Of a stretch of 31,935 nt of DNA, positions 1,665 through 31,569 are shown piece after piece. Numbering within the stretch: the first letter of the stretch is position 1; each line of letters opens with the position of its first letter. A model generated the notes under the pieces. The model was not told the origin of the DNA and did not search any database. It saw nothing but the letters and a program-made list of their open reading frames with translations. The stretch is from positions 1-31,935 of IMG/VR virus record IMGVR_UViG_3300044631_001618. The stretch is one strand, 5' to 3'. Both the position numbers and the translations under genes were made by a program. This DNA comes from a virus.

Positions 1665-1826
1665 ATGTGCGCTATGTGTGGATGTAGCTCAGAAGCCTTT
1701 ATGGGTGTAGAGCTACCAAATCAAAATGTTTATGATGTTGGTGCAACAGCAATTGTGATCGAGCCAGCTATGTTTGGGACAGAATCTTCTAACCCACTTG
1801 GAGCTAAATCGGGGGACACGGATTAA
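1665..1826 (+). CDS. Cys-rich N-terminus small protein
   Basis: A 53-residue protein starting MCAMCGCSS, three cysteines within seven residues, followed by a hydrophobic VGATAIVIEPAMFG stretch. The frame is open further upstream (to 1623), but that part overlaps the previous gene; the ATG at 1665 puts the Cys cluster at the N-terminus and leaves a 4-nt gap. The stop overlaps the next ATG (TAATG). A metal-binding role is possible; function unknown. Confidence 0.6.
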   Translation: MCAMCGCSSEAFMGVELPNQNVYDVGATAIVIEPAMFGTESSNPLGAKSGDTD

Positions 1827-2035
1827 TGTCTGAAAACGGAACAGGAATGGCATCGCCATCAAATTCTGAACCATCTGGTGCAGTTACATCAAGAGAAGCA
1901 ACAGCAAAATCTCCAAGCCAAGGCAAGTTTAGATCTGGAATGAACAATCCTAAACCTAAAATTGATACTAATAAGCACGGCATTAGAAGAGAAACTTCTT
2001 TAGCTCCAAAAAAAGTTGGTAGAAAAAAGATTTAA
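1826..2035 (+). CDS. Ser/Lys-rich disordered protein
   Basis: 69 residues, almost entirely Ser, Gly, Pro, Asn and Lys, with a strongly basic C-terminus (KKVGRKKI). No hydrophobic core is visible, so it is probably intrinsically disordered. One-base overlaps with both neighbours (TAATG) place it in a translationally coupled set with the hydroxylase that follows. Confidence 0.6.
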   Translation: MSENGTGMASPSNSEPSGAVTSREATAKSPSQGKFRSGMNNPKPKIDTNKHGIRRETSLAPKKVGRKKI

Positions 2036-2766
2036 TGACTAATATACCAGATTACTATCTTCCATATAAAAAAATATTTGACTTAATTGGAAGAGATAAA
2101 AGTAATATTGTTATCATTAACAATTTTATTGAAAAAGATCATATAGAGTCTATACAAGAGTATCTTAAAAAATACGAAAGTAATGACGAATTCCTTGGCG
2201 GTAAAGATTTAAGATACGAGAAGGTTGTTTTAGACAATCCATATATTGCTAGTCTTCTTAGACTGTATGAAGAAAAAACATTTCAAGTCATTAAAGAGAA
2301 CTTTATGGATAGATATGACATAGATGTATGGAGAAATCCAGAAAACAGGACACACTTTGTAAAGTGGGTTGAGTCTATGGATACAAAGCTGCACGCAGAC
2401 TGTGAAAAGCCTGATGGAACCCCAGCAACTGCAGCTAATTTTTATAAATATAGTCTTTCTGTTTTAATGTATCCAAACAGTAATTATGAGGGCGGAGAAA
2501 TATCTTTTCCAGAATATGGAGTAAAATTAAAACCTTCAGATGGAGATTTAATAATTTTCCCAAGTAATTCTGCATATAGCCACATAGTTTCTACTATAAC
2601 TAAGGGCGTAAGATATACAATGCCAAGCTGGTTTACATTTAATGTTGATGGTATTGAGCCAAACAACGATACAAAAGATTATACATTTTTGGACTCTGTT
2701 CAATTATGGGAAGGCCAAGAAGTTAATCCAGTTGGCCCAGGGTGGAATAAGAATAGTAAAATCTAA
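2035..2766 (+). CDS. 2-oxoglutarate/Fe(II)-dependent oxygenase (prolyl-4-hydroxylase-like)
   Basis: 243 residues. The C-terminal half has the double-stranded beta-helix signature: iron ligands H120-x-D122, a distal H183 in an AYSHIVSTI context, and R193 ten residues later to bind 2-oxoglutarate. GGEISFPEYG (about 153-162) and GDLIIFPSN (170-178) match the P4H-type core. The family uses O2 and 2-oxoglutarate to hydroxylate proteins or small molecules. Its stop overlaps the start of a sulfotransferase-like gene, which is followed by an APS kinase gene; I infer that the hydroxyl group made here could be sulfated. The substrate is not visible from sequence. Confidence 0.88.
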   Translation: MTNIPDYYLPYKKIFDLIGRDKSNIVIINNFIEKDHIESIQEYLKKYESNDEFLGGKDLRYEKVVLDNPYIASLLRLYEEKTFQVIKENFMDRYDIDVWRNPENRTHFVKWVESMDTKLHADCEKPDGTPATAANFYKYSLSVLMYPNSNYEGGEISFPEYGVKLKPSDGDLIIFPSNSAYSHIVSTITKGVRYTMPSWFTFNVDGIEPNNDTKDYTFLDSVQLWEGQEVNPVGPGWNKNSKI

Positions 2767-3326
2767 TGGATTTACTGATATCCTCTTACCCAAGAGCAGG
2801 ATCAACATATTTAGCCTATGAACTTTCTAATTACATTAGCAGCAAAAATATAAAAAAAACACACGAGATTGATTTGGACTTGAGAGCAACAACAAATGTT
2901 TATTTGCTAAGAAATCCAGTTGAAAGCATATCATCTGCAGTATCTATGCTAAAGCATTTTGGAAAAAAATCTGACATAGATCATGAAATTAAAACTTATA
3001 ATAAAAGCATAGAATATCATATAAAAAATATTGATATGTTTATTCCATTTAAATATAGTCAGGTTATTGCAGACTCTTACCTATGTTCTAAGTATATTCT
3101 GTCTCTAGGATACAACTTAGAAATTTCTAAAAAAAGCATATCTTTACCAGTTAAAGATGATAATTCTGAAAAATTTTTAAGAACATCTAAGTCTTATAGC
3201 GGATATGATTATGAATGGATTAATGTATTTAATAATAAAAATATAGAAAGTTCTGTACTTTTTTATCAAAAAATGATAGAATGTATAGATAAAAGACAAA
3301 AAGAGCTGAATATTAAAATAGATTAA
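2766..3326 (+). CDS. Sulfotransferase-like P-loop protein
   Basis: 186 residues, shorter than typical sulfotransferases (250-350). SYPRAGSTYL (7-16) corresponds to the 5'-phosphosulfate-binding loop, and LLRNPVESISSAVS (about 47-60) to the 3'-phosphate-binding segment, with R49 and S56/S57. These are the two PAPS-contacting motifs of the family. Base composition is more AT-rich than the neighbours, which may mean recent acquisition. It overlaps the hydroxylase stop by one base (TAATG). The same gene pair recurs at 21034-22255. An alternative is another P-loop NTPase, but the order and spacing of the two motifs favour sulfotransferase. Confidence 0.72.
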   Translation: MDLLISSYPRAGSTYLAYELSNYISSKNIKKTHEIDLDLRATTNVYLLRNPVESISSAVSMLKHFGKKSDIDHEIKTYNKSIEYHIKNIDMFIPFKYSQVIADSYLCSKYILSLGYNLEISKKSISLPVKDDNSEKFLRTSKSYSGYDYEWINVFNNKNIESSVLFYQKMIECIDKRQKELNIKID

Positions 3327-3334
3327 GGATAATC

Positions 3335-4096
3335 ATGATTATACAAATTATTGGACTACCAGGATCAGGCAAAACAGAGCTTGCAAAAGCTTTAAAAGAA
3401 AGAATTAATGCTATTCATCTAAACGCAGATGAGGTACGTGCAACAGTAAACTCTGATTTAAGTTTTACTCCAGAAGACAGGATTGAACAGGCAAGGCGAA
3501 TGGGTGAAATGGCTCGTTTAATTGCCAAGCAAGATGTTGCCCCAGTCATTGTTGACTTCGTATGTCCAACTGAAATAACTCGTGCAGCGTTTGGTAAGCC
3601 AGACGTTCTTGTATTTATGGACACCTTAGCAGAAGGCCGTTTTGAAGATACCAATAAAATGTTTGAACGCCCAGATAATTTTGACGTATCTTTTATTAGT
3701 CATAATCTTAATGCAGATGCAAAGGCATCTCACATTATTGAAAAGTTTGGTTTGCATGATTGGTCAGCTCCGACAACTCTTATGCTAGGTAGGTACCAGC
3801 CTTGGCACGAAGGCCACCATGCTCTTTACAAAGAGGCGGGGAAGAGAACTGATCAAGTTCTACTTGGAGTTCGTAATACCTATAACACAAGTGATAAAGA
3901 CCCACTTACTTTTGATCAGGTAAAGGGTTACATTGCTAAGGATGAATTTATGGATGGAGCATTAGTACTAAGACTACCTAACATTACAAACATTGTGTAT
4001 GGTCGTGATGTAGGATATAAGATTGAACAGGTAGATTTGGGGGCAGATATCCATGCTATTTCTGCTACGCAAAAGCGTAAGGAAATGGGCATATAA
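3335..4096 (+). CDS. Fusion of APS kinase (CysC-like) with an HxGH nucleotidyltransferase domain
   Basis: 253 residues in two domains. Residues 1-140 are APS kinase-like: Walker A GLPGSGKT (7-14), LNADEVR (29-35), a PEDRIEQARRMGEMA helix (46-60) and EDTNKMFERP (104-113). This enzyme phosphorylates adenylylsulfate to PAPS, the donor used by sulfotransferases. Residues about 146-253 form a compact nucleotidyltransferase domain, with GRYQPWHEGH (152-161) giving the HxGH motif and ISATQKR (242-248) the second motif, as in NMN adenylyltransferase or cytidylyltransferases. ATP sulfurylase uses a related HxxH fold but is far larger, so that role is not supported. The gene lies 8 nt after the sulfotransferase-like gene, with a weak AGGAT ribosome-binding site. 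Confidence 0.83.
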   Translation: MIIQIIGLPGSGKTELAKALKERINAIHLNADEVRATVNSDLSFTPEDRIEQARRMGEMARLIAKQDVAPVIVDFVCPTEITRAAFGKPDVLVFMDTLAEGRFEDTNKMFERPDNFDVSFISHNLNADAKASHIIEKFGLHDWSAPTTLMLGRYQPWHEGHHALYKEAGKRTDQVLLGVRNTYNTSDKDPLTFDQVKGYIAKDEFMDGALVLRLPNITNIVYGRDVGYKIEQVDLGADIHAISATQKRKEMGI

Positions 4097-4204
4097 ATGC
4101 TAGAGAATGCTATTGCAGTTGTTGCCTCACTTATAATTGCAATGGTTGCAGTTTACTTTGTTGATAAAAAATGGGGTGGAACTGATGACAGTAACCAAAG
4201 CTAG
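4097..4204 (+). CDS. Single-pass membrane peptide
   Basis: 35 residues with one clear membrane span (about residues 4-21, rich in Ala, Val and Ile), followed by KKWGG and a polar tail. The ATG directly follows the previous stop. Its end overlaps the DUF2061 gene by 20 nt, a typical arrangement in this window. Confidence 0.5.
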   Translation: MLENAIAVVASLIIAMVAVYFVDKKWGGTDDSNQS

Positions 4205-4388
4205 GTCATTTGCAAAAGCCCTTAGTTATCGTGTATGGGGAACTATTTCGTCAGTTGCTGTTGCTTATGTTATAACAAAAAATGCTGCTCTTTCTGTAAC
4301 GATTGCGTTTTGGGAAACGGTAGTTAAGATATTTATTTACTATGCACATGAGCGTGGTTGGAACTATATTCAATGGGGTAGAAAATGA
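4185..4388 (+). CDS. DUF2061-like small membrane protein (second copy)
   Basis: 67 residues with a basic start (MTVTKARSFAKALSYRVWG), two hydrophobic segments and the family-type end (FWETVVKIFIYYAHERGWNYIQWG). I chose ATG 4185 because GGGTGGA lies just upstream and the protein begins like its family; an in-frame start at 4137 would add a segment that overlaps the upstream peptide. Paralogue of the 876-1076 gene. It ends in an ATGA overlap with the next membrane gene. Confidence 0.75.
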   Translation: MTVTKARSFAKALSYRVWGTISSVAVAYVITKNAALSVTIAFWETVVKIFIYYAHERGWNYIQWGRK

Positions 4389-5452: not shown

Positions 5453-5558
5453 GGAAGAGATTGCAAGAAAGATCGAAGCCATCCCAATTGAAGAATCAGT
5501 GACTAATGCACTAGGTATGCAGATTTTGGCAGCTAAAGTAGCAAGAGGCCAGATATGA
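5427..5558 (+). CDS. Small helical protein
   Basis: 43 residues, predicted mostly helical (MSLDEMMLREEIARKIEAI...). It overlaps its upstream neighbour by 26 nt and its downstream neighbour by ATGA. No family recognised. Confidence 0.5.
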   Translation: MSLDEMMLREEIARKIEAIPIEESVTNALGMQILAAKVARGQI

Positions 5559-6091
5559 ATATAATTTCTCCAATAAAGATAAGCAAAGAAGATAGAGACC
5601 GATTTGTTCAATTTGCATTAAACAACTATTTAAATGAAAATGTATTTACAGTAAATGGCGAAGGAAGAAGTTTTTGCAACATACTTAATGCTCCAGAGAT
5701 ATCAGAGTTTGCAAAAGACTTTAGAGTTAAAGTTTTTAATGAAATAGGTATACATTCATTTATAGAAGAGCCAATGTTTGGAATATTTATAGGTGTAAAC
5801 ACTTTAGGTGGAAATGTGCATCAGCATAAAGATTCTACCATGAAGGGATACTATCATTTTAGATTGAATTTTATGTTATCTAAGCCAACGGCTGGCGGTA
5901 ATCCTGTTATAAATAACATAGAGTACGAGGTGCCAGAAGGCAGCTCCTGGGTTAACCTTGCCTCAGAGTGGAATCATTCATCCACAGTTGTAAGCGGTGA
6001 TAAGCATAGGATTGTTTTAAGTGTTGGCGCTACCGTTAAGAAAGATATATTAGATCCATTACTAGATACTCTTGATATAGGTAAATATTGA
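5555..6091 (+). CDS. 2-oxoglutarate/Fe(II) oxygenase-like protein
   Basis: 178 residues. The putative iron ligands are H91-x-D93 (VHQHKDS) and H141 (EWNHSST), with R152 (KHRIVLSVG) as the 2-oxoglutarate contact eleven residues later. NFMLSKPTAGGNP supplies the central beta strand. The core is more divergent from classic P4H proteins than the oxygenase at 2035-2766, and no sulfotransferase follows it. It starts by ATGA overlap with the upstream small gene. Substrate unknown. Confidence 0.72.
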   Translation: MNIISPIKISKEDRDRFVQFALNNYLNENVFTVNGEGRSFCNILNAPEISEFAKDFRVKVFNEIGIHSFIEEPMFGIFIGVNTLGGNVHQHKDSTMKGYYHFRLNFMLSKPTAGGNPVINNIEYEVPEGSSWVNLASEWNHSSTVVSGDKHRIVLSVGATVKKDILDPLLDTLDIGKY

Positions 6092-21033: not shown

Positions 21034-21618
21034 ATGAAACACTATACTCCAGCCCCAGGAATCGAAGTTTACGAAACAGGTGTAGACCTTAATAAATATT
21101 TCTCAACGATCTTTGAAAATAAAAAAGTAAGGACTATTAATGAAAAAAGAGACAAAAAGGACTTAGTAGGATTTGATTTAACATCTTCTATTGATACGCA
21201 ATTAGTAAAGCCTTTTGTTGATTTAATATCTGAGCAAGTAAATGAGTACAAAGAAAAGTATGAGATAAAAGTTTTATATAGTCATGAAATAGATTTTATA
21301 CAGTATCAGCCAGGCGGACACTTTGACAGTCATCACGATGATGATGGCTATGGTAGAAGACAAATTTCTTTTATATTTTATGTCAATGATGATTACGAAG
21401 GTGGAGAAGTTGACTTCCATCAGTTTGACTATGTCTTAAAACCTAAAAAAGGAATGCTTGTTATATTTCCATCAAACTATGCCTATATTCACACAGCTTA
21501 TCCAGTTCTTCAAGGAGAAAAAAGATTAGTCCTTGGATTTTTAAGCAAATATGAAAGAAAAGATTGGCTTATAAGAGAATTTGAAAGAGAAAACATTAGA
21601 TACGATTGGGGATATTAA
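21034..21618 (+). CDS. 2-oxoglutarate/Fe(II)-dependent oxygenase (prolyl-4-hydroxylase-like)
   Basis: 194 residues with a full P4H-type core: H100-x-D102 within HFDSHHDDDGYG, FIFYVNDDYEGGEVDF (113-128), KPKKGMLVIFPSNYAYIH (136-153) with distal H153, and R164 for 2-oxoglutarate. The best P4H match in the window. Leaderless, behind a strong promoter. The following sulfotransferase-like gene overlaps its 3' end by 38 nt, repeating the gene order at 2035-3326. The substrate is not visible; P4H-type phage enzymes may modify proteins or surface glycans. Confidence 0.9.
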   Translation: MKHYTPAPGIEVYETGVDLNKYFSTIFENKKVRTINEKRDKKDLVGFDLTSSIDTQLVKPFVDLISEQVNEYKEKYEIKVLYSHEIDFIQYQPGGHFDSHHDDDGYGRRQISFIFYVNDDYEGGEVDFHQFDYVLKPKKGMLVIFPSNYAYIHTAYPVLQGEKRLVLGFLSKYERKDWLIREFERENIRYDWGY

Positions 21619-22255
21619 GGTTAATACTCATATCTATGTAAACTCTCATCCGAGATCTGCCTCAACTTATTTAGTTAGATTATTACAGACAAGGTACGGA
21701 TACTGGGACAATCTTAACGACCACCTGCTAGCACCAATATGGAAAGAACATTTTCAGCAGGTACTTCTAGCTAGTATACCCAGCACTTTACAGATAACTT
21801 TAGTTAGAGACCCTATTGACTGTTTGGTATCTTCAACAATTAAAGACATAGGGGATTTTGTAGAGGTTACATTTCCAGATAGCAAAAATTTTTACGACAG
21901 CTACTTTAAAAATAAAATATCTGTTTATAATGAGTATTTAGATAATACTATATCTAATCATAGCGGACTAATGCCAATCAGTTTTGAATCAGTAACTTTA
22001 GATATTCATAACATCGTAGAAAAAATAGATAGTGTCGTTGATTTAATTCCAATAGAACAATTAGACTTATCGATAGATAAAGCAGTAAATGCCATGAAAA
22101 AAAGCAATAATTATAATTTTTTTCATCATAATTATCCAATGAATAAAACTAATTTGTACAATGAGTATAAAAAAACTATATCTTCTTACAAAGATAATTA
22201 TTTAAAAGAATCTTATGAAAAATACAATTATTTAAAATCAGAAATTCTTTTATAA
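21581..22255 (+). CDS. Sulfotransferase-like P-loop protein (second copy), non-ATG start
   Basis: 224 residues. SHPRSASTYLVRLLQ (22-36) is the 5'-phosphosulfate loop; LVRDPIDCLVSSTIKDI (74-90) is the 3'-phosphate segment with R76 and S84/S85. No ATG is available in frame near the start; TTG at 21581 is within the end of the hydroxylase gene, with AAGAGAA upstream. Translation from ATT 21616 or nearby cannot be excluded. The AT-rich 3' end overlaps the opposing gene at 22228. Partner of the hydroxylase upstream; with the APS kinase at 3335 it would have its own donor supply. Confidence 0.72.
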   Translation: MKEKTLDTIGDIKVNTHIYVNSHPRSASTYLVRLLQTRYGYWDNLNDHLLAPIWKEHFQQVLLASIPSTLQITLVRDPIDCLVSSTIKDIGDFVEVTFPDSKNFYDSYFKNKISVYNEYLDNTISNHSGLMPISFESVTLDIHNIVEKIDSVVDLIPIEQLDLSIDKAVNAMKKSNNYNFFHHNYPMNKTNLYNEYKKTISSYKDNYLKESYEKYNYLKSEILL

Positions 22256-22419: not shown

Positions 22420-22980
22420 TTATAGAATTACTTTATTTTTTATTTTTTCATTTGTTGCATCACCCATAAAAAAAGATAAAACGTATCTTTCTCCAGATAT
22501 TATTTTTTTAACAGCGTGCACAGTGCCTTCATTTGCCCTATGTACTATTGCCATACCAGACTTGGGTTTAATTTCTATATTTATATTTGGGTATACAATT
22601 TCCCCACCTTTGTAATTATCATTTATGTAAACAATTGCTCCAAATTGCCATGGATCTTCCTGTCCATCATGATGAGGCTCCATTGCCCAATCTTCACTAT
22701 CATTAATGCTTGGTAAATATCTTCTTATTGTTTCTCCCTTTACAACTGATAAATTTTTGTTGTCATCTATGCTTTCAAAAATTCTTTTTCTAATTAAGGA
22801 GAACAGCTCTTTGTTTTTAATATTTTTTATTTTTCCAGACCACTGATCGGTCAGTATTAGATCCTTGCTTTGCTCAACCCAATTATCTTCTTCAGCTTCA
22901 TTTTTTAGCATAAAAATTTCTTCTTCTGATAAAAAGTTTTCTACATAAAAAATGTCTGGGGTTACATATATCTTGTTCAT
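22420..22980 (-). CDS. 2-oxoglutarate/Fe(II)-dependent oxygenase (P4H-like)
   Basis: 186 residues. MEPHHDGQEDPW (100-111) gives H103-x-D105; FGAIVYINDNYKGGEIVYP (113-131) and KPKSGMAIVH (138-147) are core strands; H155 in GTVHAV is the distal ligand and R165 follows ten residues later. Leaderless: TATAAT at 22993-22988 on the minus strand ends 7 nt before the ATG. It is the fourth oxygenase in the window and the only one on the minus strand, with no sulfotransferase next to it. Substrate unknown. Confidence 0.88.
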   Translation of the reverse strand: MNKIYVTPDIFYVENFLSEEEIFMLKNEAEEDNWVEQSKDLILTDQWSGKIKNIKNKELFSLIRKRIFESIDDNKNLSVVKGETIRRYLPSINDSEDWAMEPHHDGQEDPWQFGAIVYINDNYKGGEIVYPNINIEIKPKSGMAIVHRANEGTVHAVKKIISGERYVLSFFMGDATNEKIKNKVIL

Positions 22981-29557: not shown

Positions 29558-30019
29558 ATGTCAAGACGTATGATGGTTCCCTTAAAGTTCCTAACTCTTT
29601 CAACAGACCCGTTAATCGGGTCTGTTGGGGAGGTATACGTCAACACAATTACAAAAAATTTAAGGGTTCACAATGGAATCTCTTGGATTGATTTAACTCC
29701 AGCATCAACTGACCCAGCTCCGTTCTATATGCATACACATACATATGATGGAGCAGTTCACACAATTGATGTTGAAAATCCAATTAATTTCTTAGAGTTA
29801 AATAAGAATGCAAATACACCAACTGTTTCTCTTCCAGAAGTAATTGGAATTATTGGTGGAACACCGTCTTCTGAATCAACCGCTTATCAACAAGATCTAG
29901 ATTTATTTGATGGAGGAAACCCAAATTCAATATACTATCCAGAATCTGGATATTCTGGTCATGGCGGCGGAGCAGTACAGCTTGAAATTTTATATGATGG
30001 AGGAGACTCTACACAATAA
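29558..30019 (+). CDS. Tail-fibre-associated protein
   Basis: 153 residues starting MSRRMMVPLKFLTLSTDP; GEVYVNTITKNLRVHNGISW (about 24-43) is the same fibre motif as in the neighbouring genes. The C-terminal part is Gly/Asp-rich. Starts 2 nt after the previous stop and overlaps the next ATG by one base. Confidence 0.65.
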   Translation: MSRRMMVPLKFLTLSTDPLIGSVGEVYVNTITKNLRVHNGISWIDLTPASTDPAPFYMHTHTYDGAVHTIDVENPINFLELNKNANTPTVSLPEVIGIIGGTPSSESTAYQQDLDLFDGGNPNSIYYPESGYSGHGGGAVQLEILYDGGDSTQ

Positions 30020-31569
30020 TGGCTGCCACTATATTAATTAAAAGAGATACATCAACAAATTGGTTTAACAATAATCCAATTTTAAGATCTGGTGAATTTG
30101 GTTTAGAAACAGATACTAGAAAAATTAAAATTGGTAATGGGCAAAGATGGAATAGTATAAATAAATTTATGCAGCCTTCAGAAAATAACCTAGAGGCTTT
30201 ACTTGTTAATTATATTTTAGCATCAGAAAAAGGAGCAATTAACGGTATTGCAACTTTAGATTCTTCTGGTAAAATTCTGCTTTCTCAGCTCCCAGATCAA
30301 CTGTCATTAGATACAGAATTATCAAATGCATTATCTGCATTAACAACAAGTTCAATACCAGAAGGAACAAATAAGTATTTTACAAATCAGCGTGCAATTG
30401 ATGCGGTAGCAACTAACTATGACCCTGCTGGCTCTGCAGCAACAGCTAAAACACAGGCACAGGCTTACGCAGATGGTCTAGCAACTAACTACGACCCTGC
30501 TGGCTCTGCAGCAACAGCTAAAACACAGGCACAGGCTTACGCAGATGGACTAGCAACTAACTATGACCCTGCTGGCTCTGCAGCAACAGCTAAAACACAA
30601 GCATGGGCTTACGCAGATGGACTAGCAACTAACTACGACCCTGCTGGCTCTGCAGCAACAGCTAAAACTGAAGCACAGGCATACGCAGATGGACTAGCAA
30701 CTAACTACGACCCTGCTGGCTCTGCAGCAACAGCTAAAACACAGGCACAGGCTTACGCAGACGATTTAGCAATAGATATATTAAATAATATTGGAGATAG
30801 CCTAGGAGAATATATACCACTATCTCAATTTGGAACCGCTGGAGGAGTTGCAACATTAAACTTGAGCGGTGTTTTAAATTTATCTCAAATTCCAGACACA
30901 CTTGCAACAAAAGCCTACGCAGATGGACTAGCAACTAACTATGACCCTGCTGGCTCTGCAGCAACAGCTAAGACTGAAGCACAGGCATACGCAGATTTAG
31001 TTGCTTCATCCGCAGCTGCAGCCGTAGTTGCATCTGCCCCATCAGCATTAAATACTTTAAATGAGTTGGCAGCAGCTTTAGCAAATGATTCAAATTATGC
31101 AACTACTATAAATAATGCTCTTTCACTAAAAGCTCCAATAGACTCACCAACATTTACAGGTACAGTTTATGGTGTTACAAAGTCAATGGTTGGCCTTGCA
31201 AACGTAGACAACACTTCAGATGCCAATAAACCAGTTTCAACTGCCACACAGATAGCACTTGATACAAAAATAAATAGAATAATTGAAACCAACCCTCAGC
31301 CAGCTTCCTATTCAATTGTTGCTTCTGATGCTTTTAAGTTAATTGAAATGTCAGGCGGAGGAACCTTAACAATAGTTGATTCATTGAGCTTTTTAGTAGG
31401 AACAACTATAGAAGTTTTACAAACAACAGATTCTCAAGTTACAATTGAAGGATCAGGTTTTACTCCAAATTCAACTCCTGGACTAAAACTTCGAGCACGT
31501 TGGTCTAGCGCTACTTTATTAAAGCGTGGAACAAATAGTTGGGTTGTTATGGGCGACCTGAGTGCCTAA
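30019..31569 (+). CDS. Repeat-containing tail-fibre protein
   Basis: 516 residues. RSGEFGLETDTRKIKIGNG (about 23-41) matches the N-terminal fibre motif that follows a virion-attachment segment. Residues about 131-250 hold five near-identical 24-residue repeats (ATNYDPAGSAATAKT...), with a sixth copy at about 305-327, likely extended helical shaft. A helical Ala-rich region and a C-terminal beta domain follow (TLTIVDSLSFLVGTTIEV). Likely the long host-recognition fibre; the repeats could change in number by recombination. Confidence 0.8.
   Translation: MAATILIKRDTSTNWFNNNPILRSGEFGLETDTRKIKIGNGQRWNSINKFMQPSENNLEALLVNYILASEKGAINGIATLDSSGKILLSQLPDQLSLDTELSNALSALTTSSIPEGTNKYFTNQRAIDAVATNYDPAGSAATAKTQAQAYADGLATNYDPAGSAATAKTQAQAYADGLATNYDPAGSAATAKTQAWAYADGLATNYDPAGSAATAKTEAQAYADGLATNYDPAGSAATAKTQAQAYADDLAIDILNNIGDSLGEYIPLSQFGTAGGVATLNLSGVLNLSQIPDTLATKAYADGLATNYDPAGSAATAKTEAQAYADLVASSAAAAVVASAPSALNTLNELAAALANDSNYATTINNALSLKAPIDSPTFTGTVYGVTKSMVGLANVDNTSDANKPVSTATQIALDTKINRIIETNPQPASYSIVASDAFKLIEMSGGGTLTIVDSLSFLVGTTIEVLQTTDSQVTIEGSGFTPNSTPGLKLRARWSSATLLKRGTNSWVVMGDLSA
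30409..30999 (+). repeat. 72-bp coding repeats in the tail-fibre gene
   Basis: Five tandem copies at 30409-30768 in steps of 72 bp, and a sixth partial copy at 30931-30999. Differences are mostly single bases. All stay in frame. Confidence 0.95.

Follow-up and report, generated by a model that had tools for sequence, protein, structure and literature searches.

A fragment of phage DNA encodes what we strongly predict, from sequence and gene context, to be a compact PAPS synthetase, and we think it rather probable that this gene and its neighbors constitute a phage sulfation module in which the PAPS synthetase and a DUF2061 membrane protein form the core and the genes in front of them occupy an exchangeable oxygenase/sulfotransferase slot. 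The stretch of DNA analyzed here (the window) is a whole virus record of 31,935 bases. Its ribonucleotide reductase is most similar to those of actinophages (66 to 67% identity to Coruscant-type Streptomyces phages), and a related contig (L087) contains an ORF that reads as WhiB-like, suggesting that the host is likely an actinobacterium. The kind of contig may point to a freshwater setting.

The features of the window are listed in Table 1. The first-pass annotation had described a run of three consecutive ORFs for an oxygenase, a sulfotransferase, and an APS kinase, and this layout was confirmed: the oxygenase stop codon and the sulfotransferase start codon share one base (TAATG at positions 2764 to 2768), and the kinase ATG lies 8 nt past the sulfotransferase stop codon. 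The small ORF at the left border and the oxygenase gene overlap in the same way. Far downstream, positions 30019 to 31569 encode a tail-fiber-like protein with repeated ATNYDPAGSAATAKTQAQAYADGL units.

TABLE 1 Coordinates of the genes and domains of the window
Feature	Position	Strand	Remarks
Virus record	whole window		31,935 bases
Small ORF	1826..2035	+	Left border of the swap slot; 1-base overlap with oxygenase start
2OG/Fe(II) oxygenase, P4H-type cupin, swappable-cassette member	2035..2766	+	243 aa
Predicted PAPS-dependent sulfotransferase, minimal	2766..3326	+	186 aa
Kinase/nucleotidyltransferase fusion ORF	3335..4096	+	253 aa
APS-kinase domain	3335..3760	+	Residues 1 to about 142; PF01583
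Compact HxGH nucleotidyltransferase domain	3761..4096	+	Residues about 143-253, about 110 aa
DUF2061 membrane protein, core partner 3' of kinase	4170..4388	+	PF09834, E = 6.6e-16
Second 2OG/Fe(II) oxygenase	21034..21618	+	PF13640, E = 6.6e-15
Second sulfotransferase, same family	21581..22255	+	SHPRSASTY, KEH, and RDPIDCLVSS motifs
Third oxygenase	22420..22980	opposite strand	3' of the second oxygenase/sulfotransferase pair

The fusion protein matches PF01583 over residues 2 to 85 (E = 4.8e-14) and phrog_10255 along its full length (E = 6e-63). The best 30 VIA matches of its AF2 model (pLDDT 88.5) are APS kinases or APS-kinase-domain proteins (Z, 16.4 to 18.7), followed by a gluconate kinase (Z, 15.6); the VIA matches listed for the whole model are taken up by the N-terminal domain, which is an APS kinase by PDB sequence search as well. 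This domain carries a GLPGSGKT P-loop and DxxR, DLxF, EDR, and RR motifs. A canonical lid motif and the asparagine of ENxRR are typical of APS kinases; both are absent from this kinase, in which GRFEDTNKMF takes the lid position and EQARR or RQxKR is found, and its score against the CysC equivalog TIGR00455 (52.4 bits) is far under the cutoff of 138.7. By its modeled fold, the N-terminal domain is a divergent APS kinase. The APS kinase call of the first-pass annotation was thus right about the fold and incomplete about the protein, since it overlooked a second conserved domain, by which a plain APS kinase is ruled out.

This C-terminal nucleotidyltransferase domain contains the motifs GRYQPWHEGH (at 152), YGRDVGY, and ISATxxR and matches CTP_transf_like (E = 7e-4); its best sequence match in the PDB is an NMNAT, with a profile match to 2qjt (E = 1.3e-9). 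The likeness to NMN adenylyltransferases is confined to the first half of the domain, and against PRK01153 (NMN adenylyltransferase) the fusion protein scores 27 bits, with a cutoff of 127. Sat (PF01747) does not match the protein, and PDB matches to Sat chains reach the kinase domain only. Assignment of the domain to the ATP sulfurylase family on the resemblance of YGRDVGY to the GRDHAG motif was rejected: the likeness is unsupported by profile search, and the SAR11 copies read GRGVGY. The order of an APS kinase followed by an HxGH nucleotidyltransferase is that of animal PAPS synthetase. From its context, and against the annotation of its nearest homologues, we infer a predicted ATP-sulfurylase activity for this domain, and the fusion protein would then probably make PAPS from sulfate itself.

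The sulfotransferase encoded just upstream has no significant profile family match (Sulfotransfer_3, E = 0.27, below the cutoff), and orthologues were retrieved neither by tblastn in phages nor by scanning viral sequences with peptides of the protein itself, so that the search had to rely on a profile built from diverse phage sulfotransferases. Its structure was predicted from an alignment of 15 phage sulfotransferase-like proteins (AlphaFold2 pLDDT, 87.5; pTM, 0.84), and the model was searched with VIA-align and also with Foldseek. The best 50 VIA-align matches are all PAPS-dependent sulfotransferases (Z, 10.4 to 12.2; 140 to 176 residues aligned). The protein contains a 5'-PSB loop, SYPRAGST, at residues 7 to 14 (PRAGST at 9 to 14), a KTH motif (K31-T32-H33), and a 3'-PB motif (R49...S57), and R10, H33, R49, P51, and S57 are invariant in the 15 phage members aligned with it. 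In SULTs, the KTH motif is the site of the catalytic Lys and His. Given the modeled fold and these motifs, we confidently predict a PAPS-dependent sulfotransferase. The earlier call of a sulfotransferase-like protein is therefore borne out by fold, PAPS motifs, and catalytic His, and the structural check for a PAPS pocket, named beforehand as a point on which the proposal could be refuted, came out in its favor because the sulfotransferase fold was found together with the 5'-PSB, KTH, and 3'-PB motifs. The second sulfotransferase matches Sulfotransfer_3 below the cutoff (E = 0.0026) and the first sulfotransferase by BLASTP (E = 6e-4), with their motifs aligned.

The adjoining oxygenase had been annotated as P4H-like, which agrees with a PF13640 match above gathering (E = 3.2e-9; 38.1 bits versus a gathering score of 27) and with an HxD motif at residues 120 to 122 (H120 and D122), H183, and the downstream R193, i.e., the facial triad and the 2OG-binding Arg. 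The second oxygenase, which the first-pass annotation missed together with the sulfotransferase gene that it overlaps, has two candidate HxD motifs (at 96 or 100), a distal H153, and K163/R164. Another ORF, at positions 5555 to 6091, shows an HKD...H...R spacing like that of a fourth 2OG oxygenase, though without a Pfam oxygenase match; its match to phrog_13746 is weakly shared by the third oxygenase.

We mapped 80 kinase-bearing phage relatives from IMG/VR, 77 of which had enough sequence for a count of DUF2061 genes. A DUF2061 gene lies at most 900 nt downstream of the kinase gene in 74 of these 77 loci, and the kinase and the DUF2061 membrane protein are a core phage pair. What ties DUF2061 to sulfate activation is its fusion to CysN-CysC in one alphaproteobacterium (L276:575-3127), where it forms the C terminus of a CysN-CysC-DUF2061 protein encoded downstream of CysD. 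A second DUF2061 gene is found at positions 876 to 1076 of the window and, in many relatives too, some distance upstream of the kinase gene.

The oxygenase and sulfotransferase genes 5' of the kinase occupy an exchangeable slot, the contents of which are swapped freely. In one relative (L030), the left neighbors of the slot are 94 to 100% identical to those of the window (100% for the counterpart of the small ORF) and the kinase is 91% identical, and a different oxygenase comes next, ending 8 nt before the kinase. Elsewhere the slot holds sulfotransferases of very different subfamilies, as in L034 and L043, where they end 1 to 3 nt before the kinase; several of these slot sulfotransferases score above curated Pfam cutoffs, and many relatives have oxygenases alone in this place. 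The sulfotransferase of the window was found upstream of the kinase in none of the 80 kinase-bearing relatives (tblastn), so the expected co-occurrence of the three genes in relatives fails, and a conserved three-gene operon was rejected after the mapping. What the gene-order search yielded instead of a conserved trio is a clustering of oxygenases and sulfotransferases within 1 kb: in nine near-complete relatives (L195-L247), which were used for gene counts and spacing and have 2 to 15 oxygenases and 0 to 4 sulfotransferases per genome, 11 of 18 sulfotransferases have an oxygenase no more than 1 kb away, versus 3.4 expected. These genomes contain tandem 2OG oxygenase arrays (up to 15 oxygenases per phage genome of about 115 kb). 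Sulfotransferase subtypes are diverse within the same phages. Sulfotransferases near the phage kinase number 16, versus 5.7 expected, a nominally significant enrichment that vanishes once related loci are collapsed (P of about 0.13), and one near-complete relative of 118 kb has the kinase and no detectable sulfotransferase. Another contig (L087:411-5672) encodes, in order, an oxygenase, a flavin-monooxygenase-like protein, an oxygenase, two sulfotransferases with overlapping genes, a 337-aa protein, and a third sulfotransferase.

In bacteria, the family occurs either as a fusion or as two neighboring genes. The gene that immediately follows the family member in L097, a polysaccharide cluster of the Pelagibacteraceae, encodes a Sulfotransfer_1 protein; in L127, a Sulfotransfer_3 protein is encoded before the family member, and in L106, a Sulfotransfer_2 protein is encoded after it. 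Curated sulfotransferases lie beside the family in these three loci, in the phage locus L034, and in L037. CysQ is the phosphatase for PAP, the by-product of sulfation. It is encoded directly upstream of the fusion in L153 (TIGR01331, 291 bits; cutoff, 229), and a CysQ match was found in 27 of 80 bacterial loci. Among 31 bacterial genomes with the family, which are partly incomplete, Sulfotransfer_3 is present in 24, Sat in 1, and CysD in 1. In 88 SAR11-family genomes, sulfotransferases occur in 15 of the 33 with the kinase half versus 8 of the 55 without it (P = 0.002), an association that is absent in genomes of at least 1.15 Mb (P = 0.71); of the eight genomes that have a sulfotransferase and lack the kinase half, four or more carry another APS kinase. 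A class-wide survey of the Alphaproteobacteria was uninformative, as nearly all matches were ordinary CysNC. Three SAR11 loci (L248:3040-9387, L249:2923-7324, and L250:2813-7462) encode two to three large, secreted-looking proteins (591 to 777 aa) exactly between the kinase and nucleotidyltransferase genes.

The nucleotidyltransferase half also occurs alone in some SAR11 genomes. In 16 of the 22 SAR11 loci sampled (L252-L255, L258, L260, L262-L270, and L272), the standalone gene lies directly upstream of aprM-aprB-aprA; given their shared descent, these do not amount to 16 independent cases. AprA and AprB score above equivalog cutoffs in those of the loci tested, fused copies take the same place upstream of aprMBA in L099, L100, and L105, and another standalone copy adjoins an ORF that reads as TauE/SafE-like. 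Pelagibacter (P. ubique) is reported to have AprBA and neither sat nor cysDNC (PMC5069961). Both settings would make sense if the nucleotidyltransferase were an ATP sulfurylase, which would close sulfite oxidation with AprBA and make PAPS with an APS kinase, and the standalone protein is a candidate for the ATP sulfurylase that has been missing from SAR11. We see an even chance that the NMNAT-like domain is a third, unrecognized class of ATP sulfurylase, which would serve as the Sat partner of AprBA in SAR11 when alone and which, fused to an APS kinase, would give a 253-residue PAPS synthetase in hundreds of phages, several of them with their own sulfotransferases and thus self-sufficient in sulfation.

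In the module that we propose, ATP and sulfate would be turned into APS by the nucleotidyltransferase domain, acting as an ATP sulfurylase with an NMNAT-like fold; the kinase domain would phosphorylate APS to PAPS; and the sulfotransferase would transfer the sulfuryl group of PAPS to a hydroxyl (or amine) of an acceptor, e.g., a virion protein or a glycan at the surface. The stable core would consist of the PAPS synthetase and DUF2061, and the slot in front of them would receive varying oxygenases and sulfotransferases. A reading as PAPS supply and sulfation has good support from the modeled folds and the context. Against the module stand the divergent lid and ENxRR motifs and the low TIGR00455 score of the kinase, the loss of the SAR11 association in the larger genomes, the loss of the phage enrichment on collapsing related loci, and the 118-kb relative with the kinase and no detectable sulfotransferase. 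The sequence of the nucleotidyltransferase domain also counts against it, being closer to NMN adenylyltransferase than to ATP sulfurylase, and the fusion might be an NAD-salvage enzyme, a nucleoside kinase joined to an NMN adenylyltransferase by a NadR-like logic, unrelated to the sulfotransferase and next to it by chance in a mosaic genome. The NMNAT-like GRxQPxHxGH and ISATxxR motifs and the 2qjt match (E = 1.3e-9) fit such an enzyme, as does the retention of the kinase family in phages without a detected sulfotransferase. In the Stenotrophomonas phages Suzuki and Bhz60, moreover, the fusion gene follows a NADAR gene, which in Suzuki (L002:5553-5996) overlaps its start, so that an NAD role is conceivable. 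We nevertheless consider NAD salvage unlikely: the kinase domain matches APS kinases and not ribosylnicotinamide kinases, the links to CysQ, sulfotransferases, APS reductase, and DUF2061/CysC are recurrent, and the stretch past the HxGH strand reads as much shorter than that of NMNAT.

Within the sulfation module, the acceptor group may be generated or modified by the oxygenase, a link suggested by gene position only. A pathway that hydroxylates and then sulfates one and the same group is possible but finds no support in conservation. Its strict form, one co-selected three-gene system in which the sulfotransferase uses the PAPS made by the kinase to sulfate the very hydroxyl that the oxygenase has put on one specific target, would account for the one-base and 8-nt gene spacing, for the second overlapping oxygenase/sulfotransferase pair in the window, and for the oxygenase-sulfotransferase-sulfotransferase run in L087. 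We regard it as improbable in view of the lack of a conserved trio among the 80 relatives, the many slots that hold oxygenases only, and the numbers of oxygenases (2 to 15) and sulfotransferases (0 to 4) in near-complete relatives; immediate adjacency of the two (100 nt or less) was seen for 4 of 18 sulfotransferases, versus 2.0 expected, and is not significant (P = 0.14). The oxygenase and the sulfotransferase could instead be independent cargo of a hypervariable slot, each modifying a different surface or virion component, with their co-location reflecting the place of insertion only. To this reading we assign a real probability, if somewhat under an even one: the swap in L030 (neighbors 94 to 100% and kinase 91% identical, oxygenase different), the diversity of sulfotransferase subtypes, and the tandem oxygenase arrays all favor it, whereas the overlapping frames in two separate oxygenase/sulfotransferase pairs of the window suggest cotranslation.

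The predicted PAPS synthetase resembles several known systems without coinciding with any of them. Animal PAPSS1/2 have the same arrangement of an N-terminal APS kinase and a C-terminal HxGH-superfamily nucleotidyltransferase, and their product would be shared, PAPS being predicted for the phage protein; the latter, however, has 253 aa versus about 620, with an NMNAT-like C-terminal domain of about 110 aa that has no ATP-sulfurylase family match. Because this domain is NMNAT-like by sequence, we propose that the phage protein works like a PAPS synthetase and do not file it as a member. It has in common with CysC and CysNC the APS-kinase fold and the GLPGSGKT, DxxR, DLxF, EDR, and RR motifs and differs from them in its GRFEDTNKMF lid, its sub-cutoff score, and its fused nucleotidyltransferase. 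With Sat (PF01747) and CysDN it would share the reaction (ATP + sulfate = APS + PPi) and the place beside aprBA or with an APS kinase, but membership is not detectable in its sequence, and it would be a third, unrelated solution. NadM/NadR-type NMN adenylyltransferases share GRxQPxHxGH and ISxTxxR, whereas in the fusion family the acceptor region is truncated and the context, in most bacteria with informative neighbors, is one of sulfur and not NAD.

Phage sulfotransferases are already known, and their function has been called unclear (PMC10580990). Those of the Synechococcus phages S-SCSM1 and ACG-2014f and of OM43 phages have the sulfotransferase fold, as in the window; the portion of that report considered here describes no accompanying PAPS-making enzyme, and the identity of the window's first sulfotransferase to those viral models is at most 18% among the best-ranked phage matches. 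Searches of the open-access literature turned up no prior account of a phage PAPS synthetase, of the kinase/nucleotidyltransferase fusion, or of a substitute for Sat in SAR11. What is likely new here is a PAPS-making fusion, with a likely ATP-sulfurylase domain, that accompanies sulfotransferases.

If these predictions are true, phages own a sulfate-activation enzyme together with sulfotransferases, and whether the virion or the surface of the host is sulfated becomes a question that phage biologists can test. There would also be a new class of ATP sulfurylases, the nearest annotated models of which are nicotinamide-nucleotide adenylyltransferases. For SAR11, the family would offer a concrete candidate gene for the gap left by an APS reductase without a known enzyme to connect APS with sulfate and ATP (for the absence of sat, see PMC5069961).
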